Positions 1 through 23,814 of a DNA stretch of 29,107 nt are shown in pieces. The number at the start of each line of letters is the position of its first letter. The first letter of the stretch is position 1. The position numbers were made by a program, and so were the translations under genes. Below the pieces are notes generated by a model, which was not told the origin of the DNA, ran no database searches, and saw only the letters and a program-made list of their open reading frames with translations. Source of the stretch: a virus; the IMG/VR virus record IMGVR_UViG_3300006754_003315, positions 1 to 29,107 of that record, one strand, 5' to 3'.

Positions 1-1061
1 CTGCCGCTGTAGCTAATGCTGTGACTGACAACTGGATTTCTCAAGGCCCAAGAGTTAAGGAGTTTGAGCAAAAGGTTGCGAACCAGACAGGAAAGACTTA
101 TGGTTCTGCCTGTAACTCAGGTACTACCGCTCTCCATCTCGCTCTGCATGTATGCGATGTTGGTCCTGGTGATGAGGTCATCATACCAAACTTGACAATG
201 ATAGCTCTTGCTAATGCTGTCCTATTGACTGGTGCTACTCCGGTATTTGCAGACTCTTCTGCTTATAGTGAGGTGGGAAACCTAGACTTTCTATCTGTCT
301 ATGAGCAGATAACAAAAAGAACTAAGGCTGTAATTCTTGTCCATACATACGGTGAGCCAGTAGAAGAGATAGAAAAGATAACGGACTACTGCCATAGAAA
401 TAACATTGATGTTATTGAAGATTGTGCCGAGTGTCATTTTGGGCAGTATAAGGATAGGCCGTTAGGATCATTTGGAGATGTTTCTATCTTCTCTTTTTAT
501 TCTAATAAAAATATTACAACTGGTGAAGGGGGAATGGTAACAACTGATTGTCCAGACACAAAGGCTCGTCTAGACCGTGTACGTATGCACGCCTTTACTC
601 CAGGGCAACACTTCTGTCATACCGAGAGAGCATTTGGCTATAGAATGACTGATATGCAGGCAGCAATTGGTCTAGAGCAACTAAAGAGGGCTCCTGATTT
701 TATGAAGAGGCGTGCTGAGATTAGAATAAAGTATGAGGAAGGACTGGGAGATGTTCCGCATCTAACTATCCCCGTCACCACAGAGCACTCTGCTTATTGG
801 GTCATGCCTCTACTGGCAGACAGCTTAGAGGAGCGTGATAATATTAGGCAGCATATTGCTAGTCATGGCATTGATTCTCGCACATATTTCCAGCCAATGA
901 GCGAACAAGTCTTTCTAAAAGAGTTCGTAGGAGCATGGACCTATCCTCATTCAGAAGAGTTGGCATCAAGAGGATTCTACGTTCCCCTTTATCCAAAGCT
1001 GGCAGATGAATCCATCGAATACATTATAGATGTATTGAGGAGCTATAAGCCATGTCAATAA
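1..1061 (+). CDS. DegT/DnrJ/EryC1-type PLP-dependent sugar aminotransferase (5' partial)
   Basis: Members of this family transfer an amino group to a 4-keto or 3-keto nucleotide sugar, using pyridoxal phosphate. The frame is open to the left edge, and the residues before the GTG at 21 already read like family sequence (ANAVTDNWIS), so the true start lies upstream. Counting from 21: the cofactor loop CNSGTTALHL is at 31-40, the cofactor-contacting Asp is in VIEDCAE near 134, and the Schiff-base lysine is K163 in SFYSNKN followed by GEGG. The last codons overlap the HAD gene. Neighbours suggest synthesis of a modified sugar for glycosylation of virion, host surface or DNA. The exact substrate cannot be read from sequence. 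Confidence 0.9.
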   Translation, partial: AAVANAVTDNWISQGPRVKEFEQKVANQTGKTYGSACNSGTTALHLALHVCDVGPGDEVIIPNLTMIALANAVLLTGATPVFADSSAYSEVGNLDFLSVYEQITKRTKAVILVHTYGEPVEEIEKITDYCHRNNIDVIEDCAECHFGQYKDRPLGSFGDVSIFSFYSNKNITTGEGGMVTTDCPDTKARLDRVRMHAFTPGQHFCHTERAFGYRMTDMQAAIGLEQLKRAPDFMKRRAEIRIKYEEGLGDVPHLTIPVTTEHSAYWVMPLLADSLEERDNIRQHIASHGIDSRTYFQPMSEQVFLKEFVGAWTYPHSEELASRGFYVPLYPKLADESIEYIIDVLRSYKPCQ

Positions 1062-1675
1062 AAGCTATTCTGTTTGATCTGGATGGGGTCATTAGCGATA
1101 CTCATCTTCTCCACTATGAGGCATATATAGCCGCAGTAAAAAAGGTATACAACCTTGTTGTCTCGTCAGAGTTGTATGAGTCTATGGGAAACATTCCTAC
1201 CAGAGGACGCACAGAGTTCTTGTGTGATAAGGACTATATCTTATATGATAAAGAGAAAGTAGCTGCACTACATGATGCTAAGAAGAGAAATACTCAGCAT
1301 CTAATATCTGAAATGGGCCGAGACGATAACCTTATAGACTTGCTTCATCAGGGTAAAGATAAATATAATCTCAAGTATGCCGTAGCATCCAATGCATCGG
1401 ACGAGTTTGTCCACGAGGTATTGAAACGCAAAGAGATTTCCTTGTTTTTTGATTCTGTTATTGGTAGCTATTCTATAGCTAAAACAAAGCCTGACCCTCT
1501 GATGTATAACTTATCAATGGTAAGACTAGGAGTAGCTCCCGATGAGTGCATTGTCGTTGAAGATTCTAATACAGGCATATTAGCGGGATATAGAAGCGGT
1601 GCTTATATGTATCGTGTTAATGGTCCTCAAGATATCAACCAAGGTCTTTTAGATTTAGTAGGAAAAATGCAATGA
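1052..1675 (+). CDS. HAD-superfamily phosphatase/phosphomutase-like protein
   Basis: A 207-residue HAD hydrolase of the beta-phosphoglucomutase-like group. Motif I is FDLDGV with nucleophile D9 and acid/base D11. Motif II is around the Ser of VASNAS, motif III is the Lys in KTKPDP, and motif IV is VVEDSNTG. The alpha-helical cap is inserted after motif I, as in subfamily IA. It overlaps the aminotransferase stop by 10 bases and the next gene by 4, so it is translationally coupled inside a sugar-nucleotide operon. It probably dephosphorylates or isomerises a sugar phosphate. The substrate is not known. Confidence 0.88.
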   Translation: MSIKAILFDLDGVISDTHLLHYEAYIAAVKKVYNLVVSSELYESMGNIPTRGRTEFLCDKDYILYDKEKVAALHDAKKRNTQHLISEMGRDDNLIDLLHQGKDKYNLKYAVASNASDEFVHEVLKRKEISLFFDSVIGSYSIAKTKPDPLMYNLSMVRLGVAPDECIVVEDSNTGILAGYRSGAYMYRVNGPQDINQGLLDLVGKMQ

Positions 1676-2403
1676 ATATTGTGATCCCTATGGCTGGTGA
1701 GGGAAGCCGTTTTAAATCTGCGGGATACACATTCCCCAAACCTTTAATCGAGGTCGGTCATGGAGTGCCTATGATCCAGGCAGTGGTAAACAATCTCACT
1801 TATCCCTATGCGAACTACATCTTTCTTGTTCGGGCAGAGCATGAAAAAAAATATCATATAAAAGAAATGCTAAAGCGTATTATCCCTATCAACACTACAA
1901 TGCAGGTAGTATTAGTTAATGGTCTCACTGCTGGAGCAGCATGTACTACTCTGCTCGCAAAGCCACATCTAGTAGAGAAGCAACCTCTTGTTATTGCTAA
2001 TACTGATCAGCTTGTAGAATGGAGAGGCTTAGCCTACTTTATTGAAGAGATGGAGGAAGAGAATGCTGATGGGGGAATGCTAACTTTTCAATCAGTTCAT
2101 CCTAAATGGAGCTATGCCAGACTGGATAGCAAGGGAAGGGTGGTTGAGGTAGCAGAGAAAAGACCTATCAGTACCAATGCTACAGCAGGTATCTACTACT
2201 GGAAAAGAGCATGGGATTATATTAAATATGCTCAACAAATGATAGAGAAGAATCTTACGGTGAACGGAGAGTTCTATGTATGTCCCGTATTTAATGAGGC
2301 TATCTCTGATGGGAAGATCATACGTACTTCTGAAGCGGCTAAGATGTGGGGGCTTGGTACACCGGAAGATCTTCAGTATTTTCAACGGAACACAAACTTA
2401 TGA
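1672..2403 (+). CDS. Sugar-phosphate nucleotidyltransferase (NTP_transferase family)
   Basis: A 243-residue Rossmann-like nucleotidyltransferase. The nucleotide-binding signature IPMAGEGSRF starts at residue 5, the conserved FPKPLIEV follows at 21-28, and ANTDQLVEW contains the metal-binding Asp. Such enzymes join NTP and a sugar 1-phosphate to give an NDP-sugar. It starts with an ATG overlapping the HAD stop (ATGA) and ends in an ATGA overlap with the next gene. With the aminotransferase and HAD protein it forms a minimal activated-sugar pathway. At about 243 residues it is compact: only the catalytic domain is present. Confidence 0.85.
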   Translation: MNIVIPMAGEGSRFKSAGYTFPKPLIEVGHGVPMIQAVVNNLTYPYANYIFLVRAEHEKKYHIKEMLKRIIPINTTMQVVLVNGLTAGAACTTLLAKPHLVEKQPLVIANTDQLVEWRGLAYFIEEMEEENADGGMLTFQSVHPKWSYARLDSKGRVVEVAEKRPISTNATAGIYYWKRAWDYIKYAQQMIEKNLTVNGEFYVCPVFNEAISDGKIIRTSEAAKMWGLGTPEDLQYFQRNTNL

Positions 2404-3122
2404 CAAAGGTAGCAGTCTTGTGGGCTGGAGGCATTCGTGACTTCAGACGCACATGGTCAAATTATAGGGGGGCTATCCTGCAATCTTGTAGGCATGGAGA
2501 CAACGATCTTGAGGTAGATCTATATGTTAGCACCTATGAGTCCGAAGATGTGGAAGAATTTACTGAACTTTATCAGCCTGTTCATATAGATGTAGAGAGC
2601 CTAGAGAAAGTCACCGCCAAATCACAAGAGGCTATGCTAGATCTTCAAAAGACACACTATGATAAGTGGCCAGAGTCAAATCCTATCAGTACGGTTTCAA
2701 CGCTCTATAAGCTAGACCGTGTATATAAAACATTCGAGAAACATTCATTATACAACTATGACTATGTGGTTAGGTATAGAGATAGGATATTACTATCTCA
2801 TCAGCTAGATCATGCCTTGCCTCCAGTAGGAGAATATGGACGTGGAATTCTTATTCCTCAATTTGGAAACTGGAAGGGTGGTCTATGCGATGTTTTTGCT
2901 GTAGGATCTGAACTACAGATGAAGAAGTATCATTGTGGAATATTAGATAATCTATATAGCTATCTTGAGCAAGGCTGTTATCTTCAAGTTGAAAATATTT
3001 TACTATGGCATCTAGTAGCTCAGAATATTAAGCTCATTAGAAAACCTTACGGTGTTTCGATTCTTCAAGAGACTCCTAACAAAGACTTAGATACTGCCAC
3101 TTACACAAAGAGATTCTCATGA
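2400..3122 (+). CDS. Putative glycosyltransferase-like protein, family unassigned
   Basis: 240 residues from the ATG at 2400, which overlaps the previous stop (ATGA); a longer in-frame extension from 2346 would overlap the nucleotidyltransferase and is rejected. N-terminal MTKVAVLWAGGIRDF and the central YDYVVRYRDRIL then LCDVFAVGS resemble the nucleotide-sugar and metal-binding layout of GT-A-like phage or giant-virus glycosyltransferases (an R-x-R/D-type turn after a hydrophobic strand). There is no signal peptide or membrane segment. Its place between a nucleotidyltransferase and a DUF5672-like protein supports transfer of the sugar made upstream. The assignment rests on context and weak motif likeness. 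Confidence 0.5.
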   Translation: MTKVAVLWAGGIRDFRRTWSNYRGAILQSCRHGDNDLEVDLYVSTYESEDVEEFTELYQPVHIDVESLEKVTAKSQEAMLDLQKTHYDKWPESNPISTVSTLYKLDRVYKTFEKHSLYNYDYVVRYRDRILLSHQLDHALPPVGEYGRGILIPQFGNWKGGLCDVFAVGSELQMKKYHCGILDNLYSYLEQGCYLQVENILLWHLVAQNIKLIRKPYGVSILQETPNKDLDTATYTKRFS

Positions 3123-3922
3123 TATCGTGCGTTTTAATTGACTGTGCTGTTCATGAAGATCTTGCGTTAGAGAACTTTAATAGCTTCTGTGGGTTTCTTG
3201 GGGAGCATCTGCAAGATTTTAGCTGCTTCGATAAGATTTATTTTGCCACCCATACTAAAATTGATAGAGACTATCGCGTTAAAGGTATAGCTTATATGCC
3301 TATGCCCCAGTTGTCTTATGAGGAGTACCAGCTTCTTTCTGTCTTTAAGTTATATGATATGTTCACCGAGGATTTTGTCGTATCCTGTCAGTTGGATGGT
3401 TTTCCTCTGTATCCAGAAAACTGGAAAGAGGAATTCCTAGAGTATGATTACATAGGTGCTCCGTGGAGCCCGGTAAATTTAAAAGCTCACTTAGATAATT
3501 ACTATAACGTGGGCGACGATGAAATAGACTTAGAAACAGTACCCAATAGATATCTAGTTGGCAATAGCGGGTTCTGCTTAAGGAGTAGAAAGTTCTTAGA
3601 GGTCAGCTCTAAATCAACTTACCCTTTGCATGTTTGTCCTGTACACTTTAACCATTTTACTACTGCTCCGAAGTTTGATGATTTCTTTTTCTGTGTCGGA
3701 GCAAGATCATACTTTGATATAAGAGGAATTAATTTTGCTCCTGTAGACGTGGCTTCTAGATTTTCTTTGGAAGCTGTTAGTGAAGAGGCTACTAGATATA
3801 CAGCACGCAAGGAAGGCTTTATGATGCAGCACCTACCAATAGGTGAATGCATTGACCAAAGACTAAGCTTTGGTTATCATGGCAGACCAGCCCTTAATCA
3901 TATATTAGGAATTAAAAAATGA
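3119..3922 (+). CDS. DUF5672-like glycosyltransferase
   Basis: 267 residues. The centre shows the pattern I associate with DUF5672: SCQLDGFPL, then FLEYDYIGAPW near 110-125, then VGNSGFCLRSRKFLE near 148-162. QLDG is a plausible DxD-like metal site and GNSGFCLRS a sugar-binding loop. It is predicted cytosolic, with no signal peptide. It overlaps the upstream stop by 4 bases (ATGA) and the downstream ATG by 4. Proteins of this type sit in polysaccharide or glycan clusters and are thought to transfer hexoses; the acceptor here is unknown. Confidence 0.7.
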   Translation: MISCVLIDCAVHEDLALENFNSFCGFLGEHLQDFSCFDKIYFATHTKIDRDYRVKGIAYMPMPQLSYEEYQLLSVFKLYDMFTEDFVVSCQLDGFPLYPENWKEEFLEYDYIGAPWSPVNLKAHLDNYYNVGDDEIDLETVPNRYLVGNSGFCLRSRKFLEVSSKSTYPLHVCPVHFNHFTTAPKFDDFFFCVGARSYFDIRGINFAPVDVASRFSLEAVSEEATRYTARKEGFMMQHLPIGECIDQRLSFGYHGRPALNHILGIKK

Positions 3923-8787: not shown

Positions 8788-8863
8788 AATACTAGAAGAG
8801 ATAAAAAAGTGTGAAGTTCTATGTGCTAATTGTCATAGAAAAGAACATAAAGCGGGCGATTAA
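8777..8863 (+). pseudogene. C-terminal remnant of an HNH endonuclease, ending in tRNA-Val
   Basis: The frame from 8777 reads RRSRILEEIKKCEVLCANCH and then RKEHKAGD. The CEVLCANCHRKEH core is the typical zinc-binding C-terminus of small phage HNH endonucleases. No start codon or catalytic N-terminal part is present: TAA at 8774 closes the frame. Its stop TAA lies at tRNA-Val positions 8-10. A second remnant of the same kind ends in tRNA-Gly at 11090. Confidence 0.7.
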
Positions 8864-8926
8864 CTCAGCGGCTAGAGTGTTTGGCTTACATCCAAATGGT
8901 CGGGGGTTCGAATCCCTCATTGCCCA
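8854..8926 (+). tRNA. tRNA-Val(TAC)
   Basis: Acceptor GGGCGAT/ATTGCCC, D stem ACTC/GAGT, anticodon TTTGG-CTTACAT-CCAAA (TAC), T arm GGGGG/CCCTC with TTCGAAT, discriminator A. The 5' end overlaps the HNH remnant. CCA is not encoded. Confidence 0.95.
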
Positions 8927-8929
8927 CTA

Positions 8930-9187
8930 CCCCGAAGGCCGTTCAATTCGACCGTGACCTTGGTGAACCTCTAGGACGGGTCGCGACCGTGTACGTTTTG
9001 GGCAGGGGACAATTTATTAGCGAAGACTACTAGGATGTGGGCTTAGAAGCAGCCATCATTTAAAGAGTGATTCCCTTCCGTAGAAAGAAGGGGGCGTATG
9101 GTAACAACCAACTCTCGCGGAAAGCATGTGCGGGGGCGTCATGCGAACATGCAGCATGGTCTTTGGCGTAGTAGCACACTGGTATAG
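8930..9187 (+). ncRNA. Structured RNA containing a 23S rRNA GTPase-associated-centre mimic
   Basis: Bases 9032-9066 match E. coli 23S positions 1054-1088 at 34 of 35 sites, as I recall that sequence, including TTAGAAGCA with A1067. Bases 9166-9183 match 1091-1108 at 16 of 18 sites, including A1095. The closing helix H42 is kept by pairing rather than identity: ACTAG (9029-9033) with CTGGT (9179-9183). A 99-base insert (9067-9165) replaces two bases in H44 and has its own stems (CCCTTC/GAAGGG, GCATGT/ACATGC, AGAGT/ACTCT). Upstream, CCCC (about 8931) can pair with GGGG (about 9005), enclosing more hairpins. In ribosomes this fold binds uL11 and recruits bL12 and translational GTPases. The boundaries are estimates; the role is unknown. 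Confidence 0.8.
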
Positions 9188-9197
9188 CTAATAACAC

Positions 9198-9272
9198 GGT
9201 GCCGTATCCCAACTGGTAGAGGAACAAGACTTAAAATCTTGTAGTTTGTGGGTTCGACCCCCACCGGCATCA
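9198..9272 (+). tRNA. tRNA-Leu(TAA), short variable loop
   Basis: Acceptor GGTGCCG/CGGCATC, D stem TCC/GGA with CTGGTAGA, anticodon CAAGA-CTTAAAA-TCTTG (TAA), T arm GTGGG-TTCGACC-CCCAC, discriminator A. The variable region is only TAGTTT, not the long class II arm usual for leucine. It starts 11 bases after the rRNA-like element. Confidence 0.92.
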
Positions 9273-9371
9273 CTAAATGAGATACCCTGATTGGCGAGGA
9301 TTGGCAATCTGGACTTGTGATATTTTAATTTGTTGGATAGACTTAATACTTAGGGGACTAGGTATTCGTTA

Positions 9372-12122: not shown

Positions 12123-12427
12123 GGGGCCGACTTGGTTTCGACCTATTGGACGGATGTAAAGTTGCGTGTGGTAGTTGGTCAAAGGGCTACCTAAAAAATT
12201 GACTAACATTTAATTGCAAACGAAAACTTTGCTTTAGCTGCGTAAGCAGTAGGGGTTATCTAGCACCCTGTTAACCAAAGCTAGATACCTGTTTTGAAGC
12301 TGGACTGTAAGAGGTCATTAAACTATCCTGCCCCTTGGTCGTGCAGGGCTTAGCTCGACACAAACACGTAGACGCTTTATTGAAAACAATTAGGGACGGG
12401 GGGTTCGAATCCCCCCCGGCTCCACCA
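12123..12427 (+). ncRNA. ssrA: Transfer-messenger RNA (tmRNA)
   Basis: The tRNA-like ends are complete: GGGGCCG pairs with CGGCTCC including the G3-U70 alanine signal, the 5' part has the typical GGTTTCGAC, the T arm has GGTTCGAATCC, and A-CCA is encoded. The resume codon and tag frame at 12216-12245 read GCA onward as ANENFALAA then TAA, a standard LAA-ending degradation tag. The interior has room for the usual pseudoknots. tmRNA with SmpB frees stalled ribosomes and tags the protein for ClpXP; no smpB is seen here, so host SmpB would be used. Confidence 0.96.
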
Positions 12428-13620: not shown

Positions 13621-14712
13621 ATGAAGAAAGTAAATCTGTTTTGCCCCATCAATTCTCTGGGATATGGAGTAGTAAGTTATAATGTATGGAAGGAGCTAAA
13701 CAAGACTGATGATGTGACTCTCTGGCCTGTCAGTAATCAGATAAGCACTCCTATTAAAATGAACGAGGAGCAGACTCATCAGTTTCAGATTGATATCATG
13801 AAGCAAAATGAGTTTGATCCTACTGCTCCATGCTTGAAGATTTGGCATGAGAACCATCTAGGGGAACGTATTGGGGTTGGTCCTTTAACAAATCTTTCTT
13901 TCTTTGAAGTAAATAAGTTTGATGCTCGCCGCAAGTCTCATCTTAAGTCGGCAGATCGAATAGCAGTCCCCTCTCTCTGGGCCGCTGCCATTGTTATTGA
14001 CCAGCTAAAGATCAAACCTGCTGACGAGAAGCCTCATATCGTACCTATGGGCGTGGACCGCACCATCTTTAACGAGACGTTTAATAACACTGATCCCCAT
14101 AAGTGTATCTTTTTTAATTGCGGCAAGTGGGAGGTTCGTAAGGGCCATGATATTCTACATAAAGCTTTCAAAGATGCGTTTCCGAACGTTCATGACGTAG
14201 AATTATGGATGATGGCAGACAATCCATTCCTCAATGAGAATCAGAAGAGTCAATGGGAGTCTTCTTATAAGGGAGACTATCGAATCAAGCTGATAGAGAA
14301 GGTTCAATACCAGGACGAACTAGCAAGAATTATGGCTAGAATTAACTGCGGGGTCTTCCCTGCTCGTGCTGAGGGCTGGAACCTTGAGATATTAGAGCTT
14401 ATGAGTATGGGCAAGCAAGTTATTGCTACGGACTACTCAGCACATACTGAGTTCTGCAATAAGGACAATTGCAACCTAGTTAAAATAACAGAAGAAGAAC
14501 CTATGTTTGATGGGTACTGGTTCACGGGAGATAATGGTACATGGGCATCACTAGAAGGTGACGCTTATGATGAGTTAATCAACCGTCTACGAGAAGTATA
14601 TAAGCGATGGCAGAGTGATCGTGAGATGCCTAACGAGGCAGGTATCGAAACAGCAAAAGAACTCTCTTGGGAAAAAACAGCCGCCTCATTATTGGAGATA
14701 ACTACTGCATGA
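13621..14712 (+). CDS. Family 4-type (GT-B) glycosyltransferase
   Basis: 363 residues, GT-B fold with two Rossmann domains. The donor-binding C-terminal domain has FFNCGKWEVRKGHDIL near 160-175 and the EX7E pair E251/E259 in AEGWNLEILELMSMGKQV, followed by ATDYSAHTEF. This is the GT4 layout of retaining transferases using NDP-sugars. The N-terminal half (LFCPINSLGYGVVSYNVW) is the acceptor domain. A second glycosylation gene, separate from the cassette at the left, suggests more than one glycan step. The stop overlaps the dUTPase start (ATGA). Confidence 0.9.
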   Translation: MKKVNLFCPINSLGYGVVSYNVWKELNKTDDVTLWPVSNQISTPIKMNEEQTHQFQIDIMKQNEFDPTAPCLKIWHENHLGERIGVGPLTNLSFFEVNKFDARRKSHLKSADRIAVPSLWAAAIVIDQLKIKPADEKPHIVPMGVDRTIFNETFNNTDPHKCIFFNCGKWEVRKGHDILHKAFKDAFPNVHDVELWMMADNPFLNENQKSQWESSYKGDYRIKLIEKVQYQDELARIMARINCGVFPARAEGWNLEILELMSMGKQVIATDYSAHTEFCNKDNCNLVKITEEEPMFDGYWFTGDNGTWASLEGDAYDELINRLREVYKRWQSDREMPNEAGIETAKELSWEKTAASLLEITTA

Positions 14713-15161
14713 AAGTCAAACTTCTACATGAAGACGCAAAGGTTCCAACAAAAGCCAATAAATCTGATGCAGGCTGGGATCTGTATGCCATCGAAGACGT
14801 TACAATAAATGGAGGGGAAAGGAAGACGGTTAAGACAGGAATTTCTATTGAGATACCAGAGGGCTATGCCGGTCTTATCTGGCCTCGATCAGGACTTGCT
14901 GTTAAAAAAGGAATAGATGTACTGGCAGGAGTAATAGATCAGGGCTACCGTGGAGAGATCATGGTGTGCCTGTTCAACTCTACTATACCTCTTCCTCTTT
15001 TTGAAACCCCTCAAGATGAGAATGTTCAAGTGAGGATTAAGAAGGGAGATAGAATAGCACAAATACTATTCCATGAGACTTATCAGTTTAAAATGCACGC
15101 AGTATCAGAACTAACAACCTCTGAACGTGGAGGCTCTGGGTTTGGGAGCAGTGGAAAATGA
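14709..15161 (+). CDS. dut: dUTP diphosphatase (dUTPase, trimeric type)
   Basis: 150 residues from the ATG at 14709, which overlaps the previous stop; the upstream extension to 14667 is rejected. All five motifs are present: SDAGWDLYA (1), PRSGLAVKKG (2), GVIDQGYRGE with the catalytic Asp (3), KGDRIAQILF (4), and RGGSGFGSSG (5). It converts dUTP to dUMP, which keeps uracil out of DNA and supplies thymidylate synthase at 18941. Coupled to the next gene by a 4-base overlap. Confidence 0.96.
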   Translation: MKVKLLHEDAKVPTKANKSDAGWDLYAIEDVTINGGERKTVKTGISIEIPEGYAGLIWPRSGLAVKKGIDVLAGVIDQGYRGEIMVCLFNSTIPLPLFETPQDENVQVRIKKGDRIAQILFHETYQFKMHAVSELTTSERGGSGFGSSGK

Positions 15162-15391
15162 CTCTATACAAAATCGGAACCGAAGTAGAGATATGGCAAT
15201 CTGATGGAAAGAGCATCAAGGGGCATGTTCATGCTATAACTATTCGTGAATCGGGGGTTATATACAATGTCGTTTGGTGGAATGGTGATGCTAGACATGA
15301 TAAATGGTTGGCTGAGTATGAAGTTCGTGATCACGCCCGTTCTGAAAAACACAAGATAGGATTTGCTAGTAATGTCGCTAATAAAGAATGA
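15158..15391 (+). CDS. Small SH3/Tudor-like hypothetical protein
   Basis: 77 residues, ATGA-coupled to dut. Strand-rich: LYKIGTEVEIWQSDGKSIKG, HVHAITIR, YNVVWWNGDARHD. This is a small barrel of the KOW/Tudor/SH3 kind, often used to bind RNA or proteins. The 3' end overlaps the GMP reductase start by 20 bases. The specific role is unknown. Confidence 0.55.
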   Translation: MTLYKIGTEVEIWQSDGKSIKGHVHAITIRESGVIYNVVWWNGDARHDKWLAEYEVRDHARSEKHKIGFASNVANKE

Positions 15392-16541
15392 TCTGAAGCT
15401 TGACTTTGATGATGTTCTCTTGGTCCCTAAGCGTACTAGGGCAGCATCTCGCAAGAGCGTATCTGTCGAGAGAGACTTTCAGTTTTATCACTCGAATAGA
15501 ACCTGGAGTGGCACGCCTATCATGGCTGCTAACATGGATACTACAGGAACTATAGATATGGCTGATCGTTTATGGGCTCATGACATGATTACGTGTCTTC
15601 ATAAGCATTATACCTATCCCGAATTAGCAGAGTTCTTTAACGATGTTCACGAAGCAGAAAAGAGCTGGCTAATGGCTCACGCCTGGGTTAGTATAGGCAT
15701 CAAAGACCATGATTTTGATAGACTGGACGCACTAGTCACTGAGATAGAAGGCGTTCCTAATATATGTATTGATGTAGCTAATGGATACACAGACGATTTT
15801 GTTAAGCATTGCTCTAAGATTAGAGAACACTATGCCACCAATGATGAGTACCCTATTATTATGGCTGGCAACGTCTGTACTCCTGAGATGGTTCAAGAGC
15901 TAATCTTGCATGGAGGAGTGGATATTGTCAAGGTTGGCATCGGTCCTGGCTCAGCCTGTACGACACGCCTCAAGACAGGAGTGGGCTATCCTCAGCTCTC
16001 GGCCATAGCAGAGTGTTCTCATGCTGCCCACGGCCTCAAGAGCTACGAGAAACGGCTAGGACTGATCTGTGCTGACGGTGGTTGTCGCACGCCTGGAGAT
16101 GTTTGTAAGGCTTTCGCGGCGAACGCAGATTTTGTGATGCTTGGGGGCATGTTGGCTGGTACAGACGAGTGTGAGGGTAAATGGTTATATCGTGATCCTA
16201 CCTTCCCCAAAAACACCCTAAAAGACCTTTCTCTTCTAGAAGAACTAGAGAGGGAGAGTATCATAAGCTCGGAAAGTCTAGTAAAAGCACAGCTTGAATT
16301 CTATGGAATGTCATCAGAGCACGCACAAGACAAACACTGTGGTGAAATGAAAAACTATAAGACCAGCGAAGGTCGAGTAAAATATATTGATTATAAGGGA
16401 TCAGCAGAACACGTATTAAGAGATATAGTAGGAGGTATACGTAGCTGCTGTTCGTATATTGGTTCAACATCAATTAAAGATATGAGCAAGTGTGCAGATT
16501 TCGTTCGCGTAGCACGAACACATTATGATCAAACAATCTAG
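15372..16541 (+). CDS. guaC: GMP reductase
   Basis: 389 residues from the ATG at 15372; a TTG three codons upstream is less likely. A TIM barrel of the IMPDH/GMPR family: [12 protein letters not shown] at the start, catalytic C196 in [19 protein letters not shown], then [11 protein letters not shown] and [10 protein letters not shown], and the flap FYGMSSEHA. No CBS domains, and GMPR-type [17 protein letters not shown], so reductase rather than dehydrogenase. It turns GMP into IMP with NADPH and shifts purines toward adenine. Compared with typical GMPRs (about 345), about 25-30 extra residues lie before FYGMSS. A rare phage gene. Confidence 0.9.
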
Positions 16542-16571
16542 TAGTCAGGCTCATTTGGAGGCACGCGAGTT

Positions 16572-17657
16572 ATGAAGATAGCTATATTCGGAACAGGTGG
16601 AATGGGAAAGGCCATCATCCACCTACTGAAAACGGTCTACTTCTCAGAACCTATTTCTATAGTAGCGTTTGATAGAGAAGAGGAATGCCCTAGAGGTTTA
16701 CAGTGTGATGAATATCATAGTATTGATGTTAATCAATCATATAGTCATGAGACAAGTCCTATATATGGAAAAGATTTTGACCTTGTATTCTCGGCCCTGC
16801 CCTACTTCTATAATCCCAAGGTTGCAAGCCTAGCGGTAGCGGCAGACGTTCCGTATTTTGATCTTGGTGGGTCAGTACCTATCAGCCGCAAAATCAACGA
16901 GAGATATAAAAATGCTACAGTATTCACTGATCTAGGGCTTGCACCGGGATGGGTAAATATAATGGCAGAGGAAGCCTATAGAGAGCTGTCTCGTACAGGT
17001 GCAGTAGAAGAAATAAGAATGCGTTGCGGAGGTCTTTCAGCACAGCAGCTACCAAAGCACGAAGATCCGTTCGGGTATGCAAAAACATGGTCTGCTGATG
17101 GATTGTACAACGAGTATGCAGACGACTGTGAAGTGCTAGAGGGCGGAAAGATTACTACAGTGCCGGGAATGTTGTGGCTAGAGGATGTAAAAACTCAGGG
17201 GGTTCTCAATTGGCAGGGGTGTCATACCCCGCTTGAAGCCTTTTTTACTAGCGGTGGAGCATCGCATACTCTCCAGTTAATGAAAGACAGAGGGGTTAAG
17301 CATTGCTCATACAAGACACTAAGATACCAAGGACATAGAGATCTTGTCCACTACTTTATTCATACCAAAGGATTCTCTCCAAAGGGATTATCAGAATTGT
17401 TTGCCCCTCATAGAGAAAAAGATATTGTTATTTTAGATGTATGGGGATACTCAGATCGTTTCGAGTATCGCGTCTCTCACGCTATCCATGCTGACTTTGA
17501 AACAGATGGGTATAGTGCTATGCAAAAGGCTACAGCCGCAGGGTTTATTGCTGCGGCATTATCGTCTGATGTTAGTCAGCGTAGACCACTAACATATGCA
17601 GATGTAGATATAGATCTATTCAATTCAACAATAAATAAAATGGGGATTATGAAATGA
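16572..17657 (+). CDS. Saccharopine dehydrogenase-like NAD(P)-dependent enzyme
   Basis: 361 residues. The N-terminal Rossmann motif IFGTGGMGKAIIHLL is at 5-19, DLVFSALPYFYNP follows near 70-82, then TDLGLAPGWVNIMA. The C-terminal dimer domain is like that of saccharopine dehydrogenase and related carboxynorspermidine enzymes. These enzymes make or split imino-acid linkages (lysine, saccharopine or polyamine precursors). RBS TGGAGGCACGCGAG. Unusual in phages: it may alter host amino-acid or polyamine pools, or make a DNA or protein modification. The 3' end overlaps the next gene by 4 bases. Confidence 0.85.
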   Translation: MKIAIFGTGGMGKAIIHLLKTVYFSEPISIVAFDREEECPRGLQCDEYHSIDVNQSYSHETSPIYGKDFDLVFSALPYFYNPKVASLAVAADVPYFDLGGSVPISRKINERYKNATVFTDLGLAPGWVNIMAEEAYRELSRTGAVEEIRMRCGGLSAQQLPKHEDPFGYAKTWSADGLYNEYADDCEVLEGGKITTVPGMLWLEDVKTQGVLNWQGCHTPLEAFFTSGGASHTLQLMKDRGVKHCSYKTLRYQGHRDLVHYFIHTKGFSPKGLSELFAPHREKDIVILDVWGYSDRFEYRVSHAIHADFETDGYSAMQKATAAGFIAAALSSDVSQRRPLTYADVDIDLFNSTINKMGIMK

Positions 17658-18505
17658 CAGGACGCAGAGATTTTTTTAAAAAATTAGGACTTGGCATTGG
17701 TGCTCTAGCAGCAGCACCTTTAGTAAAAAAAGTAGAAGCGATAGAGCAGGCGACGATTGAAAAGGATGCCGCAGTCACCTATACTAAGACTACGTTTCCA
17801 GACGAAACAACTTCCGTTAACGGAGTTAGAACAGAGTGGCCAAAGTGGCTAGAGAATAAGGTCATAAACGGTGGGTCGGGAAATCTTCTTCCTCTTGGCG
17901 AAGATTTTAAAATTGAGTATTATGAAAGCCTTGATGATTGTATCCATGAGATACATAGTCCTGACAGCCCCTCTCCTATGACGACCCACAACTATGGAGT
18001 TTCTCCTCTTTCGGGAACTCTTGATCTATGGGACACTGGTACGGCGAAAGGCTTAAGGGCACAGAGAGATATTCGAGAGGTGGACTCATCCTTTTTTATG
18101 GATCAGGTGGCAGAGAAAGGCTCTGTAGTAACCTACGATGGGATAAGTCATCCTGAGTGCCCAGTAGAATGCGTTAGACTACAACAAGGAGACGAGCCTG
18201 TTGCAGGTATTCTTCTAAACGATGTAGTAAACATTGATTTAACCAATTCTCACTACCCTCTTGCCTCAGATGTTATGAAGGGCGGTAAGGTTCAGGTGTT
18301 GCGAAAAGGCACAATCATTACGAGACCTTTGGGAGAACCTACCCCAGGAGCCAACGCCTATGCTAATGGCTCTTATATAACAACCGACTATAGCGATAGC
18401 TCAGTACCTCAAGAGTTTCGATTAGGGGTGGCACGTAAGATTGGGACATTTTTAAGCGGAAAGGATCAAGATGGTTTTGCGAAAGTTAGTATCACTAATC
18501 TTTGA
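17654..18505 (+). CDS. Virion-like protein with a twin-arginine signal
   Basis: 283 residues. The N-terminus TGRRDFFKKLGLGIGALAAA is a textbook Tat signal (RR at 4-5, basic then hydrophobic h-region, cleavage near KKVEA). The mature part is beta-rich, with a C-terminal region (GILLNDVVNIDLTNS, KVQVLRKGTIITRPLG, RLGVARKIGTFLS) that resembles phage head-decoration or minor structural proteins. If both readings are right, a structural-type domain is exported folded to the periplasm. Alternatively it is an exported enzyme or envelope protein not recognised here. Overlaps the next ORF by 35 bases. Confidence 0.6.
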   Translation: MTGRRDFFKKLGLGIGALAAAPLVKKVEAIEQATIEKDAAVTYTKTTFPDETTSVNGVRTEWPKWLENKVINGGSGNLLPLGEDFKIEYYESLDDCIHEIHSPDSPSPMTTHNYGVSPLSGTLDLWDTGTAKGLRAQRDIREVDSSFFMDQVAEKGSVVTYDGISHPECPVECVRLQQGDEPVAGILLNDVVNIDLTNSHYPLASDVMKGGKVQVLRKGTIITRPLGEPTPGANAYANGSYITTDYSDSSVPQEFRLGVARKIGTFLSGKDQDGFAKVSITNL

Positions 18506-18944
18506 TTATAATGCCAAGCCCCCTGCCTCCGTAGATTGTGCCGACTGTGGTAAGTCCTGCGACCCTGTCTACTGGGCTGGAACCTCAGCACGATGTACTG
18601 ATTGTCATAATGCTCGTATGGGAGAAGACGAGGAGTGCGATGGCAAGATAGGTATTGAGTATAGCTGTAAGGATGGGCAGCTATATGTCTCAGCAGCGGT
18701 AGAGGATGCTTCCGAAACATCTGCTGATCTACTGGCTCGTACTTGTCTTCGAATAGAGACTGGAGAGATAGCAGAGTTTGTATATCAGGCTCTCAGTGTA
18801 TGGGCACAGGAAGATATTCATAGATTGCAATTTATGGAGAAGGTAGCGATACGACTAATGGAGCTTCGTGGTACAGAGAAAGGTAAAAAGAAGCTGGCAG
18901 TTGACCCCTCACAAGTTTTTGATTTTAGGAACATAAAAGAATGA
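18471..18944 (+). CDS. Hypothetical protein with zinc-binding cysteines
   Basis: 157 residues; the ATG at 18471 lies inside the previous gene. CADCGKSC and CTDCHNAR, about 20 residues apart, form a likely zinc ribbon near residues 23-50. The rest is acidic and helical (EDIHRLQFMEKVAIRLMEL). It couples to thyA by a 4-base overlap. Unknown role; a nucleic-acid-binding or regulatory part is possible. Confidence 0.6.
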   Translation: MVLRKLVSLIFDYNAKPPASVDCADCGKSCDPVYWAGTSARCTDCHNARMGEDEECDGKIGIEYSCKDGQLYVSAAVEDASETSADLLARTCLRIETGEIAEFVYQALSVWAQEDIHRLQFMEKVAIRLMELRGTEKGKKKLAVDPSQVFDFRNIKE

Positions 18945-19894
18945 AGCAGTATCTTGACATAGTGCGGAACGTTATGGAGAACGGACACTTGAAAGGGAAT
19001 CGTACCGGAGTGCGAGCAAAGACCACTTTTTGTGAAGTATTCAGACATAATATGGCTGACGGTTTTCCACTTTTAACAACCAAAAAAACATATATGCATG
19101 GGATTGCTGTCGAACTAGAAGGCTTTCTCAACGGTATAACAAGTAAGGGATGGTATCAGGAGCGGAGATGTAAGATATGGAACGAGTGGGCAAACCCTAA
19201 GTCGGTAGAGAGTATGAAGGCAGAGTTAAAGGAGGCTCATCCTACTAAGGAAGACTACTCAACAGAGATGGTACAGGAGATAGCCAATGATCTCGGTCCT
19301 ATATATGGCTATCAATGGCGTAATTTTGATGAGCATTATCCTGTACAATGGGACGCAGGACCAGAAGACTTTGGGGATAGAGCTTCTCTAGATTGGCCGG
19401 TAAACGGAATAGAGAAGGGGTGTGACCAACTAAAAAATGTAATTAATACATTAAAAACTAATCCAGACGACCGCAGGATGGTCATATCTGCCTGGAATCC
19501 TAACCAAATACACTTGATGGCACTTCCTCCCTGCCATTACGCCTTTACTTTAGTTCATATCAATGGTGTATTAAATTTATGTTGGAAGCAAAGATCCTGC
19601 GATCTTATGCTAGGAGTACCGTTTAATATTGCCAGCTATGCACTGCTTTTAGAGTTGATTTGTAAAGAAAGTGGCTTAATACCGGGAGAGTTGGTAGGTA
19701 TTTTAGAGGATTGTCATATCTATGAAGACAAAATGAAAGGTGCAGTCCAGCAGCTTGAGCGTGACCCCAGACGATTACCGACTATCACGATCCCATATGG
19801 TGGCTTTGATATCTTTAATTGGACGCATGAGGATTATAGTTTAAATAATTACGACCCCCATCCAAAAATAGACTTTGGCAAAGTCGCAGTATGA
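18941..19894 (+). CDS. thyA: Thymidylate synthase (ThyA type)
   Basis: 317 residues. Phosphate-binding R21 in GNRTG, the LTTKK segment at 45-49, catalytic C198 in ALPPCHYAF, then QRSCDLMLGVPFNIASYA, and the C-terminal region with DCHIYED. It makes dTMP from dUMP with methylene-tetrahydrofolate. Together with dUTPase and dCMP deaminase in this window it gives a full dUMP-to-dTMP route. ATG overlaps the upstream stop. Confidence 0.96.
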   Translation: MKQYLDIVRNVMENGHLKGNRTGVRAKTTFCEVFRHNMADGFPLLTTKKTYMHGIAVELEGFLNGITSKGWYQERRCKIWNEWANPKSVESMKAELKEAHPTKEDYSTEMVQEIANDLGPIYGYQWRNFDEHYPVQWDAGPEDFGDRASLDWPVNGIEKGCDQLKNVINTLKTNPDDRRMVISAWNPNQIHLMALPPCHYAFTLVHINGVLNLCWKQRSCDLMLGVPFNIASYALLLELICKESGLIPGELVGILEDCHIYEDKMKGAVQQLERDPRRLPTITIPYGGFDIFNWTHEDYSLNNYDPHPKIDFGKVAV

Positions 19895-19903
19895 GGTGAG
19901 CAG

Positions 19904-20407
19904 ATGAGCGAGCACAATGAGTTAACTGTTAATGGTGAACTTGTACCATACCCATCAGGGAATGATGTTTATTGGGAGCATTGGGTTGATGCCTATAACA
20001 ATGAAGGTATTGACAACACAAAAAAAATGATTCAAGAGATTGAAGAAGAGACAGATGCAATGCTGGCAGGAGAACCTGTTGCTTATAATGACGACTTCGA
20101 TGAAGAGGATATACCTTTTTTTAATCCTCAAATAAAAACAATGATGACCCCCTTTGGAGTGCTGCCTCTAACAGAAGATTCTTTTGCAAGCAAGCACTTT
20201 AAGTTTTGGGTAGGACATACCAACTTTAAATTATGGGAGCACTACTACGAAGTTATTGGAAATGTTCTAGGCGTAGAATCCGTTGATATACTAACTCCGC
20301 TTCGTTTTAGGATAGCGGTAGGAAAGATGTTTCAGGATAATGAGGTTAAGGAAAAAGTAAAAGAGGCACTTCTTGAGGCGTTAAAAAATGAGTCTAAAAA
20401 ATCGTGA
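19904..20407 (+). CDS. Hypothetical acidic protein before the ClpP-like gene
   Basis: 167 residues, start after TGAGGTGAGCAG. The N-terminal half is very acidic (DFDEEDIPFFNPQ), the second half aromatic and mixed (HFKFWVGHTNFKLWEHYYE), with a lysine-rich helical C-terminus. It overlaps the ClpP-like gene by 20 bases, so expression is coupled. Function unknown; an adaptor or substrate of the protease is only a guess. Confidence 0.58.
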   Translation: MSEHNELTVNGELVPYPSGNDVYWEHWVDAYNNEGIDNTKKMIQEIEEETDAMLAGEPVAYNDDFDEEDIPFFNPQIKTMMTPFGVLPLTEDSFASKHFKFWVGHTNFKLWEHYYEVIGNVLGVESVDILTPLRFRIAVGKMFQDNEVKEKVKEALLEALKNESKKS

Positions 20408-21071
20408 TAGGGTATCAAAGGGATATATTGTTGATGAGATGCATCGCTTTAATATCCTGTTAGAGTCAAGAGAAGTTTTTTTACATGCGTGTTTTGACAA
20501 TGATGGTGACCCTGGTGTCGATTATCGCATGTCTAATAACTTTGTTAAAAATATGACCTTGCTAGATCGTATAGACGATCAAAAACCTATCATTGTACAT
20601 CAGCATTCGACTGGTGGTGAGTGGACAGAGGGTATGATGATCTTTGATGCTATTGCTACATGCACTTGTCCAGTAGTTATAATTATGCATGGTATAGCTG
20701 CTTCTATGGGCAGCATAATCCCCCAGGCAGCAGACCTTCGCATAAATATGCCTAATTGTTGGTGGCTAATCCATGATGGGACAACAGATGTTCAATCCGA
20801 CTTCTCTATCAGAATGGCAAAGGCATGGGCAAACTGGGAAGATATCACAGGCAAAGAGATGATGAACATATATGCGGGAGCATGTGCAAATGGGGCTGTC
20901 TATAAGGAAATGAGCGAAAGACAAATCAAAAACCACATCGCTAAGAAGCTTGAGAAGAAACAGGATTGGTGGCTATCGTCCGGGGACGCTGTAAGTCACG
21001 GTTTTGCTGATGCCATATGGGGCACAGAAAACTACGAGTCCTTAGAAGCAATCAAAAGCCATGTACTTTGA
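20388..21071 (+). CDS. ClpP-like serine protease
   Basis: 227 residues, ClpP/crotonase fold. Catalytic S106 lies in HGIAASMGSII and H129 in WWLIHDG, at ClpP spacing. The acidic third residue would be in the following helices (candidates in WANWEDITGKEM). IIVHQHSTGGEWTEGM is the strand and oxyanion region, and GDAVSHGFADAIWG matches the ClpP C-terminal GxAxxxGLxDxI. Phage ClpP-like enzymes serve as prohead proteases or as cytosolic Clp partners. Here the location among metabolic genes leaves both open. The last 11 bases overlap the next ORF. Confidence 0.87.
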   Translation: MSLKNRDRVSKGYIVDEMHRFNILLESREVFLHACFDNDGDPGVDYRMSNNFVKNMTLLDRIDDQKPIIVHQHSTGGEWTEGMMIFDAIATCTCPVVIIMHGIAASMGSIIPQAADLRINMPNCWWLIHDGTTDVQSDFSIRMAKAWANWEDITGKEMMNIYAGACANGAVYKEMSERQIKNHIAKKLEKKQDWWLSSGDAVSHGFADAIWGTENYESLEAIKSHVL

Positions 21072-21705
21072 ATACTGCAACTACAATAAATATATAGATG
21101 ATTACGGCAAAGAGCTTACCCATATCTTTGGGGCCGTTGATAAAGGGTTAGGGGGCTTAGCCCTACCTATCCATCTGATTCGCGAAGTGAAAGAATATAT
21201 GCCAGCAGGAACGGTCCTAGCTACGGCCATAGACTATCCTTCTGGCTATAGCTCCCCCAAGACCCGTAGTCATGCTGTGCTCACTGCTCTTAAATCGAAC
21301 GTCACAGCCATTGACTACGTACCCAACCAATATTTCGTTCGCAATAAGTTCACTGAGGTAAGCGAAGAGGTTAAGACTGCTCTGGCAATGTGCAAGGACT
21401 ATGGGGCCACTCTAAGGGTATTTTTAGACTATCATCATATCAGTAATATCATCACATTCTCTCGTCAATTGGAGAAACTAGGGGTAGAGATAGTCTTTCC
21501 TACTCTTGGATATCATCATGACGATTTTTTTGATAACCTACTTAATGCAAAGATGGTAGAGAAACAAACTAGCCTTTCCGTCATCTTTAATGGGTATATG
21601 TGGACCCCCGAACACATGGAAATAATTAAAAAATCTAAGTTATTTGGTGCTAGACTGTATAATCTATCCCTTTGGTGTAAATATAAGCAGGAACAGGACT
21701 TGTAA
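21061..21705 (+). CDS. DeoC/aldolase-like TIM-barrel protein
   Basis: 214 residues. LALPIHLIREVKEYM, then AIDYPSGYSSPKTRSHAV, then VTAIDYVPNQYFV follows the deoxyribose-phosphate aldolase pattern (glycine-proline turn, helix, then an xxIDxV strand). Late TSLSVIFNGYMWT and GARLYNLS fit the last barrel strands. The aldolase Schiff-base Lys in the KTSTGF motif is not evident, so activity may differ or be lost. If active, it would split deoxyribose 5-phosphate and feed carbon from host DNA breakdown. Confidence 0.6.
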   Translation: MYFEYCNYNKYIDDYGKELTHIFGAVDKGLGGLALPIHLIREVKEYMPAGTVLATAIDYPSGYSSPKTRSHAVLTALKSNVTAIDYVPNQYFVRNKFTEVSEEVKTALAMCKDYGATLRVFLDYHHISNIITFSRQLEKLGVEIVFPTLGYHHDDFFDNLLNAKMVEKQTSLSVIFNGYMWTPEHMEIIKKSKLFGARLYNLSLWCKYKQEQDL

Positions 21706-21727
21706 TGTTGGAATTAAAGGGACACTA

Positions 21728-21740
21728 CGACTAAAAGTCG
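21728..21740 (+). promoter_or_regulatory. 5' hairpin before the gene at 21751
   Basis: CGACT pairs with AGTCG around an AAA loop, just upstream of the RBS GGAGTAAT. It could stabilise the mRNA of a highly expressed structural gene. Confidence 0.4.
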
Positions 21741-21750
21741 GAGTAATATT

Positions 21751-22344
21751 ATGACTGATTTTAATATCTCGCTAGGTATAGACCACGGAATAACCAATGG
21801 TCTGCCTACATCTGGAGACAACGACATTGGAACCATTCGATATGGTGGCAATGTTGCAGACTCAACCTTCTTCAATGCAACAGCATTGGGTGGGCCAAAC
21901 CGCGTAACAACCCTCGTATCTGGTGTTGATGGATTAAGTGGCATTTTGAGTGCTGGTCCTTTCAATGGTGGTGACCAAGTTATCCGTCGAGTGACAACCG
22001 ATATCGCTAATGTTGCGAACAATGTTCTCTTGGCCGGTGCTTCTAACTCTGCGAATGGTCAATCTATCCATACTGTATTCAAGAATGCTGTCGTATACTA
22101 CAAGAGAGGTATCCGTGAAAATCACTGGAATCATTTCTCTGGAGTATGGGAAGCTGGCTTTCCTGAAACTGCGAACTCTGGTATTTGGGATCAAGCAACT
22201 GATGCCGATCAAGGTGATGATGCCAGAACCAACACCACTGATGATGCAGCTCACCCAACTGCTGCTATTCCTGGTGAATTCGTTTATCGTGATGGTAGTC
22301 CAACTCCAGTACAGGATGACTACGCAGCCAAGACCCTATTTTAA
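21751..22344 (+). CDS. Putative virion structural protein
   Basis: 197 residues, Gly/Asn/Asp/Thr-rich (GIDHGITNGLPTSGDNDIG, GILSAGPFNGGDQVIRR). Basic residues are few, and codon use favours GGT, GCT and AAC more than in its neighbours, as in abundant proteins. No signal peptide. Beta-rich composition fits a capsid-decoration, fibre or tail component. Neither repeats nor a named domain were recognised. Confidence 0.5.
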   Translation: MTDFNISLGIDHGITNGLPTSGDNDIGTIRYGGNVADSTFFNATALGGPNRVTTLVSGVDGLSGILSAGPFNGGDQVIRRVTTDIANVANNVLLAGASNSANGQSIHTVFKNAVVYYKRGIRENHWNHFSGVWEAGFPETANSGIWDQATDADQGDDARTNTTDDAAHPTAAIPGEFVYRDGSPTPVQDDYAAKTLF

Positions 22345-22376
22345 GCTAGCCCTTTAACTCCTTTGAGGAAATCATC

Positions 22377-22727
22377 ATGAGTGATCCTGCAATAATTGGA
22401 GGGATAGTTGCTATTTCAATAGCCCTGGTTAAGATACTAGACCTTGTAGTTAGCTCTTTCATTAAAAAGCTATTCCCTAGTGATGGGTGGCAAGAAGAAG
22501 AGAAAGACAGGGCTTTATCGTATTTGAATAGGTTGTATGAAATGCATGACAAGGTAGACGGCGATGGGACTCCTATTTGGTACGTTCCTAGATCATGGAC
22601 AAAGACTCAAAAAGAAATCTTACAAACTGTTAGCGAAGTGGCTCATACCCAAGCCTTACTAGCCAACACAATGGAAAGATGCGTTGAGATCCTTGACCGG
22701 ATTGATCGTCGAAACGGTCGCGAATAA
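22377..22727 (+). CDS. Membrane-anchored small protein (holin- or spanin-region-like)
   Basis: 116 residues, RBS TTTGAGGAAATCATC. An N-terminal membrane segment (AIIGGIVAISIALVKILDLVV) is followed by a charged helical cytosolic or periplasmic part (KTQKEILQTVSEVAHTQALL) that may form a coiled coil. This layout recalls small phage membrane proteins near lysis genes, but nothing specific to holins is seen. It is followed by a strong terminator. Confidence 0.58.
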   Translation: MSDPAIIGGIVAISIALVKILDLVVSSFIKKLFPSDGWQEEEKDRALSYLNRLYEMHDKVDGDGTPIWYVPRSWTKTQKEILQTVSEVAHTQALLANTMERCVEILDRIDRRNGRE

Positions 22728-22748
22728 TCCTATCGAGAAACTGCATAA

Positions 22749-22797
22749 GGCAGAGTACAATTCCTTAACGGGTTTTGTACTTTGCCTTTTTTTATTG
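22749..22797 (+). terminator. Intrinsic terminator
   Basis: GGCAGAGTACAA pairs with TTGTACTTTGCC (12 bp, one G-U pair) around a 12-base loop, followed by TTTTTTT. It contains GCAGAGTACAATT, also present just before the terminator at 13021. Confidence 0.92.
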
Positions 22798-22805
22798 GGG
22801 AAGAT

Positions 22806-23024
22806 ATGGATGACAAGGAATCAAAGAGTTTTCGCTATAGATTTAAAGTAGATGAAGAAGTAGCAGAAATGTATGCTAAGAGCAACTGCAAGGAGTGCTT
22901 TGGCAAGGGAGTAGTTCGCTCACAACAGGGGACTGGAGGAGGGACTATTAGACGTGGAGGCTCTGTAATTCAGTCTATTAATTACTGTCAGTGCGTCAGA
23001 AAGAATCAAAGGAAATATGGATGA
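22806..23024 (+). CDS. Small zinc-motif protein
   Basis: 72 residues from the ATG at 22806 with RBS GGGGAAGAT; the TTG at 22782 lies in the terminator stem and is rejected. A DnaJ-like CKECFGKGVV and YCQCV pair predicts one zinc site, separated by a Gly-rich loop. Unknown role. The stop overlaps the dCMP deaminase start (ATGA). Confidence 0.65.
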   Translation: MDDKESKSFRYRFKVDEEVAEMYAKSNCKECFGKGVVRSQQGTGGGTIRRGGSVIQSINYCQCVRKNQRKYG

Positions 23025-23518: not shown

Positions 23519-23553
23519 TTTTAAAAGTTGAGCGTAACTTTTTTTGGTAGAGT

Positions 23554-23748
23554 AACGGTGTATATTATAGAGGTCGGGAAGAAACGAGCGAGTCAAATTC
23601 TCACCGTTAAAGCGACACATCCCGATCATTTCTAGAATGGTTGTAAGGCTACCATGATAAGCGTCAGGTTGGATGATTACTTTTAATGAACAACAAACTT
23701 ACAATTAACCCCTAGTAGTCTGACTTCAGCCATCATACGTGTCGCTTT
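23554..23748 (+). promoter_or_regulatory. Structured leader upstream of nrdJ, candidate riboswitch
   Basis: No ORF is supported between 23519 and 23814. Long helices can form: GGTCGGGA (23572-23579) with TCCCGATC (23620-23627), AAAGCGACAC (23609-23618) with GTGTCGCTTT (23739-23748), AACGGTG (23554) with CACCGTT (23602), TTGTAAG (23641) with CTTACAA (23698), and GTCAG with CTGAC. The first two cross each other, which implies a pseudoknot or alternative states. The leader ends in a terminator just before a B12-dependent reductase. GGGAA followed by a hairpin with GUCAAAUU and later GCGUCAGG recalls cobalamin riboswitches weakly. The ligand is not proven. Confidence 0.55.
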
Positions 23749-23758
23749 TAAAAATTAC

Positions 23759-23801: not shown

Positions 23802-23814
23802 ATGGAGGAAATAA

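Follow-up and report, generated by a model that had tools for sequence, protein, structure and literature searches.

A phage RNA family resembling the GTPase-associated centre of 23S rRNA, with an inserted domain in H44

What is a segment nearly identical to part of 23S rRNA doing between two tRNA genes of a phage? The question is raised by a 29,107-nucleotide stretch of viral DNA (the window; positions 1 to 29,107 of IMG/VR record IMGVR_UViG_3300006754_003315), for which a first-pass annotation had proposed a phage RNA copying the GTPase-associated centre (GAC) of 23S rRNA. The element lies, as stated there, between tRNA-Val and tRNA-Leu (8854-8927 and 9198-9273); the phage record contains 15 tRNAs and a tmRNA. 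In comparison with the E. coli 23S sequence, window positions 9032-9066 are identical to 1054-1088 at 34 of 35 bases (the sole change being U1061 to G) and positions 9166-9183 to 1091-1108 at 16 of 18 (A1096 to G and U1101 to A), which reproduces exactly the 50 of 53 identities reported earlier. Both A1067 and A1095 are retained in the window, also as reported. The ungapped correspondence runs from 1054 (9032) to 1090 (9068) and from 1091 (9166) to 1108 (9183). The insert in H44 had been given as 99 bases, which is the distance between the two ranges compared; because the equivalents of G1089 and U1090 are still present at 9067-9068, the true insert is 97 nt long (9069-9165). It sits between the equivalents of U1090 and G1091 and ends in UUUG. 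Outside the stem formed by ACTAG and CTGGT, a further 8-bp helix (TTATTAGC/GCTAATAA) closes the element (Table 1).

The match exceeds what chance would give. In a cmscan of 270 nt of the window, LSU_rRNA_bacteria (RF02541, positions 1077-1160; 34.9 bits, E=2.5e-9) was the only match among 4227 Rfam families, at a score under the Rfam gathering cut-off of 50 bits; when the window was scanned at gathering cut-offs, only tRNA and tmRNA were found. The covariance models of GOLLD, ROOL and other Rfam ncRNAs, a check that had been suggested along with the original proposal, gave no match to the element. A covariance model (R1) built from 29 other phage members, with the window left out, recovered the element at 67.1 bits (E=1.6e-15) and had no other hit in the window. 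Unconstrained RNAfold gave z=-1.5 and a core that is not GAC-like, which is expected because the domain is held by tertiary contacts; the comparative evidence is stronger.

Table 1. Positions of the parts of the GAC-like RNA element in the window
Feature	Positions	Strand	Basis or remark
Complete GAC-mimic RNA element, both outer closing helices included	9014..9194	+	tRNA-Leu follows 3 nt downstream
Outer closing helix, 5' strand TTATTAGC	9014..9021	+	Pairs with 9187-9194; in RNAfold MFE and centroid; paired by cmscan
Internal loop GAAGACT, like the AGAC bulge of 23S H42 (uL10 region)	9022..9028	+	cmscan alignment; also in L007
H42-like helix P1, 5' strand ACTAG	9029..9033	+	Pairs with CTGGT, 9179-9183; P1 covaries in the family
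GAC 5' half = 23S 1054-1090 (H43 and H44 5' strand)	9032..9068	+	Sequence match, cmscan, covariance model
H43 stem-loop GGC-TTAGAAGCA-GCC (1062-1076), A1067 at 9045	9040..9054	+	Sequence match, cmscan
1082-1086 loop	9060..9064	+	Pair U1082:A1086 covaries among members (UA/CG/AU)
Phage-specific inserted domain in H44, closed by P2 (GATT 9069-9072/GGTC 9158-9161)	9069..9161	+	Sequence, covariance model; P2 covaries in the family
Insert sub-element GCATRTGCGGGGKCGTSATGCRAAYATGCRGCA, common to L006 and L014	9124..9157	+	Insert comparison
UUUG linker, kept in the family, not in 23S	9162..9165	+	Family versus 23S comparison
GAC 3' half = 23S 1091-1108; H44 tip A1095 at 9170, derived A1101 at 9176	9166..9183	+	Sequence match, cmscan, covariance model
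Outer closing helix, 3' strand GCTAATAA	9187..9194	+	Sequence; RNAfold

The element is not confined to this phage; many large bacterial viruses have it, usually amid tRNA genes. Two scans of IMG/VR with short exact patterns returned at least 120 matches each, and one pattern scan of bacterial genomes returned 19 contigs; all member counts are lower bounds. Both halves were recovered in at least 181 loci, at least 111 of them non-redundant: among the matches listed, 181 loci with both halves yielded 151 distinct elements and 111 non-redundant ones of canonical length, and two of the 181 loci (L025 and L036) are true 23S. At least 111 members map without gaps to 23S 1054-1105. When 27 IMG/VR loci bearing the 5' motif were inspected, 26 were without any other 23S motif tested, and all share a derived 3' half (TTTGGCGTARNAGCRCAC; GAAAGCGTAATAGCTCAC in 23S). 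A BLAST search of annotated phages showed that the piece also occurs in isolation, without annotation as rRNA, in Cronobacter phage GAP32, Pectobacterium phage CBB, Xanthomonas phages XaC1 and XacN1, Aeromonas phage 4_4572 and Pseudomonas phages pf16, UNO-G1W1, Milchi and Astolliot; further carriers are Xanthomonas phage XbC2, Erwinia phages (Kaldavass and SNUABM phages), Serratia phage BF and Acinetobacter phage ME3, so that a dozen or so cultured phages contain it. The carriers are attributed to several bacterial phyla (most contigs have no assigned host). In most of the carriers searched there is a single copy, and three contigs (that of L170 and carriers G031 and G036) have two; the copies at L170 lie in tandem about 318 nt apart and have different inserts. 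Another locus, L009, carries a near-copy of the window element. When 150 Bacillota genomes were searched with R1, the hits were about 70 nt long and look like ordinary 23S by length, except in the seed genome Flintibacter muris, where the match is longer; the contig bearing this match also encodes a phage-type RNA ligase and methyltransferases.

Covariation was assessed in the set of at least 111 non-redundant members and scored in an ungapped alignment of 29 sequences (A1). Strong covariation was found in the closing helix H42, in H43, in the 1082:1086 loop pair and in the new helix that closes the insert. Among the listed matches, the positions of P1, the H42 equivalent (1050-1055), are paired in 92-111 of 111 members with all pair types (shuffled means, 45-101), 1058:1080 is paired in 110 of 111 with four Watson-Crick types, and 1082:1086 is paired in 102 of 111 (UA 57, CG 32, AU 13); the first three positions of P2 are paired in 111, 109 and 101 of the same 111. 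The covariation score of A1 was 0.636, versus 0.151 when shuffled and at most 0.212 with slid partners. Both bases of the tertiary pair U1060:A1088 are invariant (111/111 listed matches), as are the tertiary-pair columns 17 and 45 of A1. The criteria for a GAC fold, i.e. the standard pairs of H43, H44 and the closing H42 and the tertiary pairs U1060:A1088 and 1082:1086, are met. RNAalifold proposed a local hairpin (UG-GC/GC-A-CA) in place of the GAC-type H44. Its j:1102 pair holds in 136 of 145 listed matches, versus 143 of 145 for 1087:1102, and the tandem copies at L170 replace the G:C pair of the GAC form with C1087:G1102 in one copy and A1087:U1102 in the other. Because L170 compensates 1087:1102 only, the GAC form of H44 is favoured and the local hairpin is disfavoured.

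These data bear out the suggestion of the first-pass annotation that the closing stem is maintained by pairing and that the fold is selected, since P1 covaries strongly across the family. Loss of the pairings and loops in related phages would have overturned the proposal; instead, both are kept, with massive covariation. The idea that a phage RNA copies the GAC has withstood each of the listed tests that could be run, and we regard the mimicry as near certain. The shared derived features (the UUUG linker, A1101 and the insert) further show that this is one ncRNA family under selection and not the fragment of a single phage. The original annotation knew of no such phage RNA, and no free-standing mimic of an rRNA domain in any virus was found in Rfam or in the literature searched (preprints and most subscription journals were outside its scope). 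The family is large and apparently previously undescribed, although an unpublished or paywalled description is not excluded.

The inserted domain varies in length from 45 to 365 nt (median 130) among the listed matches, and the inserts form recurrent classes with conserved modules and class-specific ends. One module, CACCCCGUAACUGGUAAGG, is common to 31 of the listed elements (e.g. L111, L139 and L054) and consists of CACCCC-hairpin-GGUAAGG, the hairpin having a compensated stem and a GNRA or UAAC-like tetraloop; its flanking UAAG is conserved, and the module resembles a tertiary docking motif. Another class (GAP32/XacN1 type) shares GACCCUUAGAG ends and a further one a GUGCGAAAUG module, and the 3' part of the window insert is common to L006 and L014. 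The insert is thus a set of real domains rather than filler. An extra hairpin after A1077 was observed in L007, L011, L015, L043, L110, L115, L132, L135 and L154, which makes this the second site at which the GAC core accommodates additions.

Which parts of the domain are preserved was determined by comparison with 21 distinct 23S sequences from three phylum samples, each half being scored only in members recruited through the other half (unbiased samples). Among the listed matches, the bases of the fold, the uL11-contact bases and the H44 core are kept at 98-100%, with U1060, C1072, A1077, A1084, A1085, G1087, A1088, G1093, U1094, A1098 and A1103 at 100%. Relaxed positions among the same matches are A1067 (81%), G1068 (81%), A1070 (79%), A1095 (89%), A1096 (74%) and U1097 (46%), whereas A1067, G1068, A1070, A1095 and A1096 are all 100% conserved in the 21 23S sequences. 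In the unbiased samples of listed matches, A1067 is replaced by another base (G, C or U) in 19% and A1095 is altered in 11%, and about a fifth of the listed members have G at 1070. Conservation of A1067 and A1095 as in 23S is thus a criterion that the family fails, though the window keeps both. The 58-nt domain of 23S is the L11 site and folds autonomously, thiostrepton has been placed near A1067 and A1095, which are close together in the fold, and A1070 has been described as buried (PMC4409310). From this pattern it may be inferred that selection seems to act on the fold and on the site for uL11, and not on the factor/drug tip; A1070 also varies between A and G. Among the functions suggested initially, uL11 binding remains favoured by inference; titration of factors or binding of thiostrepton is less probable, because the tips A1067 and A1095 are relaxed and the uL11-contact bases are kept. 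The site had also been described as one that recruits bL12. An H42 bulge like that of the uL10/bL12 site is retained by the window and a few relatives alone: among the listed matches, AGAC occurs near that place in only 7 of 151 members, including the near-copy of the window element, and a clear 23S-like bulge (AGAC, uL10 region) only in the window/L009 and L007. The family does not meet the criterion for a uL10-(bL12) binding RNA, namely a conserved AGAC bulge in H42.

The elements are linked to tRNA genes. Of the 151 listed elements, 73 have a tRNA no more than 200 nt away, compared with 29% of positions drawn at random in these loci, and a tRNA within 1 kb is always on the same strand (89/89). 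The element start is within 10 nt of a tRNA in 34 of these 151 listed elements and the end in 23, an arrangement that would fit release by RNase P and tRNA 3' processing, an inference made without expression data. In XacN1, a promoter (TTGACT-17-TAATAT) is located just upstream of the element, and a GC-rich hairpin with a T-run, terminator-like by eye, directly follows P1. Together with the ends that abut tRNAs, these signals hint at a discrete RNA; overall, terminator-like sites are not enriched (18/151 versus 67/755, listed matches). The tmRNA of the window (12123-12427; tag ANENFALAA; cmscan, 116.9 bits) lies in the 15-tRNA cluster, and tmRNAs are also present in loci L062, L082, L132, L143, L160 and L185 as well as L009. 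The window additionally contains a large set of auxiliary genes (21-3922 and 13621-26367), including those for a sugar aminotransferase, a HAD hydrolase, a glycosyltransferase, IMP dehydrogenase-like and saccharopine dehydrogenase-like proteins, thymidylate synthase, a Clp protease and ribonucleotide reductase.

No protein-coding gene consistently accompanies the RNA. There is no conserved downstream gene (89 ORFs, mutually unrelated, largest cluster 3), so the element probably acts in trans, in the absence of expression data. No common neighbour family was detected either, the largest occurring in 7 of 150 loci among the listed matches; two of the top three have, by eye, the look of homing-type endonucleases. 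A DUF2828/DUF7788 protein (phrog_850, 'RNA-binding protein') is encoded in 15 of 52 carrier genomes, and in seven carriers (G003, G005, G006, G029, G033, Milchi and Aeromonas 4_4572) its gene is located about 6 kb or less from the RNA, versus a reckoned one or so expected by chance; it is possibly a partner of the RNA, or the two may merely share residence near tRNA arrays. A uL11 gene was found in none of the 52 carriers searched, so any such partner would be the uL11 of the host. Proteins of about 125-196 aa with an above-cut-off match to the C-terminal domain of bL12 (PF00542), through which translational GTPases are recruited, were observed in 4 of the 52 (G004, G026, G029 and UNO-G1W1).

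Our main reading, to which we assign a probability of about 0.5, is that the family consists of trans-acting phage ncRNAs whose GAC fold binds host uL11 and whose insert provides a lineage-specific surface; binding, expression and function are untested. The RNA would fold as a free-standing GAC and bind host uL11 in trans, mainly through the site for the uL11 C-terminal domain, and the inserted domain would serve as an effector or docking surface specific to the phage lineage. If the RNA held uL11 that is free or exchangeable, or linked an object bound to uL11 with the target of the insert, it might shift a uL11-dependent state of host translation. As a speculative example, activation of RelA could be dampened while phage tRNAs flood the cell, an attractive possibility because RelA activation needs uL11 and phage tRNA arrays may raise the level of uncharged tRNA. 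The partner is inferred, whereas the family, its fold and selection, the tRNA linkage and the lack of a conserved downstream gene are documented; a sponge or adaptor for uL11 carrying a variable domain is our best guess. A bolder version, in which viral RNAs capture host uL11 through a stolen rRNA domain and reprogram ribosomes (e.g. by blunting the stringent response) with the hypervariable insert as effector, is tentative and considerably less probable. Against uL11 binding stand the absence of binding, expression or phenotype data, the possibility that the H44 insert disturbs uL11 docking, and the G found in about a fifth of members at A1070, which has been described as buried in the fold (PMC4409310). 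A pure sponge would in addition have to be expressed at a very high level, there being tens of thousands of ribosomes per host.

The conservation that supports uL11 binding could also arise if the GAC were merely a stable scaffold, of a kind typical of abundant RNA, that presents a functional insert, uL11 binding being incidental. The recurrent insert classes, with their modules and class-specific ends, are compatible with this explanation, which we nevertheless consider unlikely, since U1060, A1077, A1084 and A1088 are invariant and have a tertiary or uL11 role but none in secondary structure, and a mere scaffold would be expected to be swapped for other folds. A decoy, substituting for the GAC as the target of a host defence nuclease, modifying enzyme or ribosome-targeting toxin and thereby sparing phage translation, appears to be no more probable. 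The exposed loop tips are the very positions that are most relaxed, no GAC-acting defence factor was found, and we know of none, whereas carriers often encode RNA repair functions (T4-type RNA ligase in 18 of 52) and phage escape from ToxIN provides a precedent for RNA mimicry as counter-defence (PMC3475682). That the RNA instead diverts translational GTPases (EF-G, EF-Tu) or thiopeptide antibiotics would suit the window, with its intact A1067 and A1095, but is improbable for a family in which these bases change as often as described above and from which the sarcin-ricin loop and bL12, also needed for factor binding, are absent. Regulation of a downstream gene in cis through ribosomal-protein binding finds some support in the RBS-preceded ORFs located within 100 nt of 44 of the 151 listed elements; these ORFs are unrelated to one another and many elements are followed by a tRNA or a terminator, and such a leader, hardly tenable on these grounds, was rejected. 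Phage-labelled records such as OR845016, OR847528, KM209255 and MZ092003 contain ordinary bacterial 23S, apparently from the host, and such records were left out of the family. Chance insertion of 23S or rRNA contamination of assemblies, which does account for real 23S in some phage records (Listeria, Staphylococcus and Salmonella entries; L025 and L036), is refuted for the family and excluded for all loci but those two by the lack of other 23S motifs near the elements, the shared and derived 3' half, linker and insert, the extensive covariation and the matching places of the element in related cultured jumbo phages.

Capture of host uL11 by such an RNA would, if true, represent a novel type of translational control by phages, and the family suggests a hitherto unrecognised mode of interaction between viruses and the host protein-making machinery. 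It is testable at once because cultured phages carry the RNA. The finding lies close to an unsolved problem, namely what makes phages retain tRNA arrays and unusual structured RNAs such as GOLLD and ROOL, and it supplies more than 100 naturally occurring versions of an RNA fold that is among the most thoroughly studied, including insertions in H44 of the GAC, which to our knowledge nobody has examined. Screens for ncRNAs that mask rRNA-like sequence would have missed this family.

Compared with the uL11-binding domain of 23S (H42-H44, 1051-1108; RF02541 1077-1160), the phage RNA has the same secondary structure and tertiary pairs, a nearly identical core sequence and, usually, the A1067 and A1095 loops, but it is free-standing with no other rRNA around it, contains the 45-365 nt H44 insert, the UUUG linker and A1101, and has a variable closing helix and relaxed loop tips. 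It does not satisfy the criteria for bacterial LSU rRNA, i.e. the RF02541 gathering score (34.9 versus 50 bits) and the remaining domains. GOLLD and ROOL are likewise phage-encoded structured ncRNAs, often near tRNA islands, and GOLLD has been reported to bind ribosomes in pull-downs (PMC12286853); the GAC-like RNA is much smaller and is built around an rRNA domain. The leaders of ribosomal-protein mRNAs (L1, L10, L20 and S15) also imitate the rRNA site of a protein, but they are cis-regulatory, whereas the phage element has no conserved or ribosomal-protein gene downstream and so fails the defining position of such leaders, upstream of a conserved ribosomal-protein gene. The pseudo-ToxI of phage PhiTE, directed against ToxIN, is another phage RNA that imitates a host RNA, its model being an antitoxin RNA and that of the present family a domain of rRNA.
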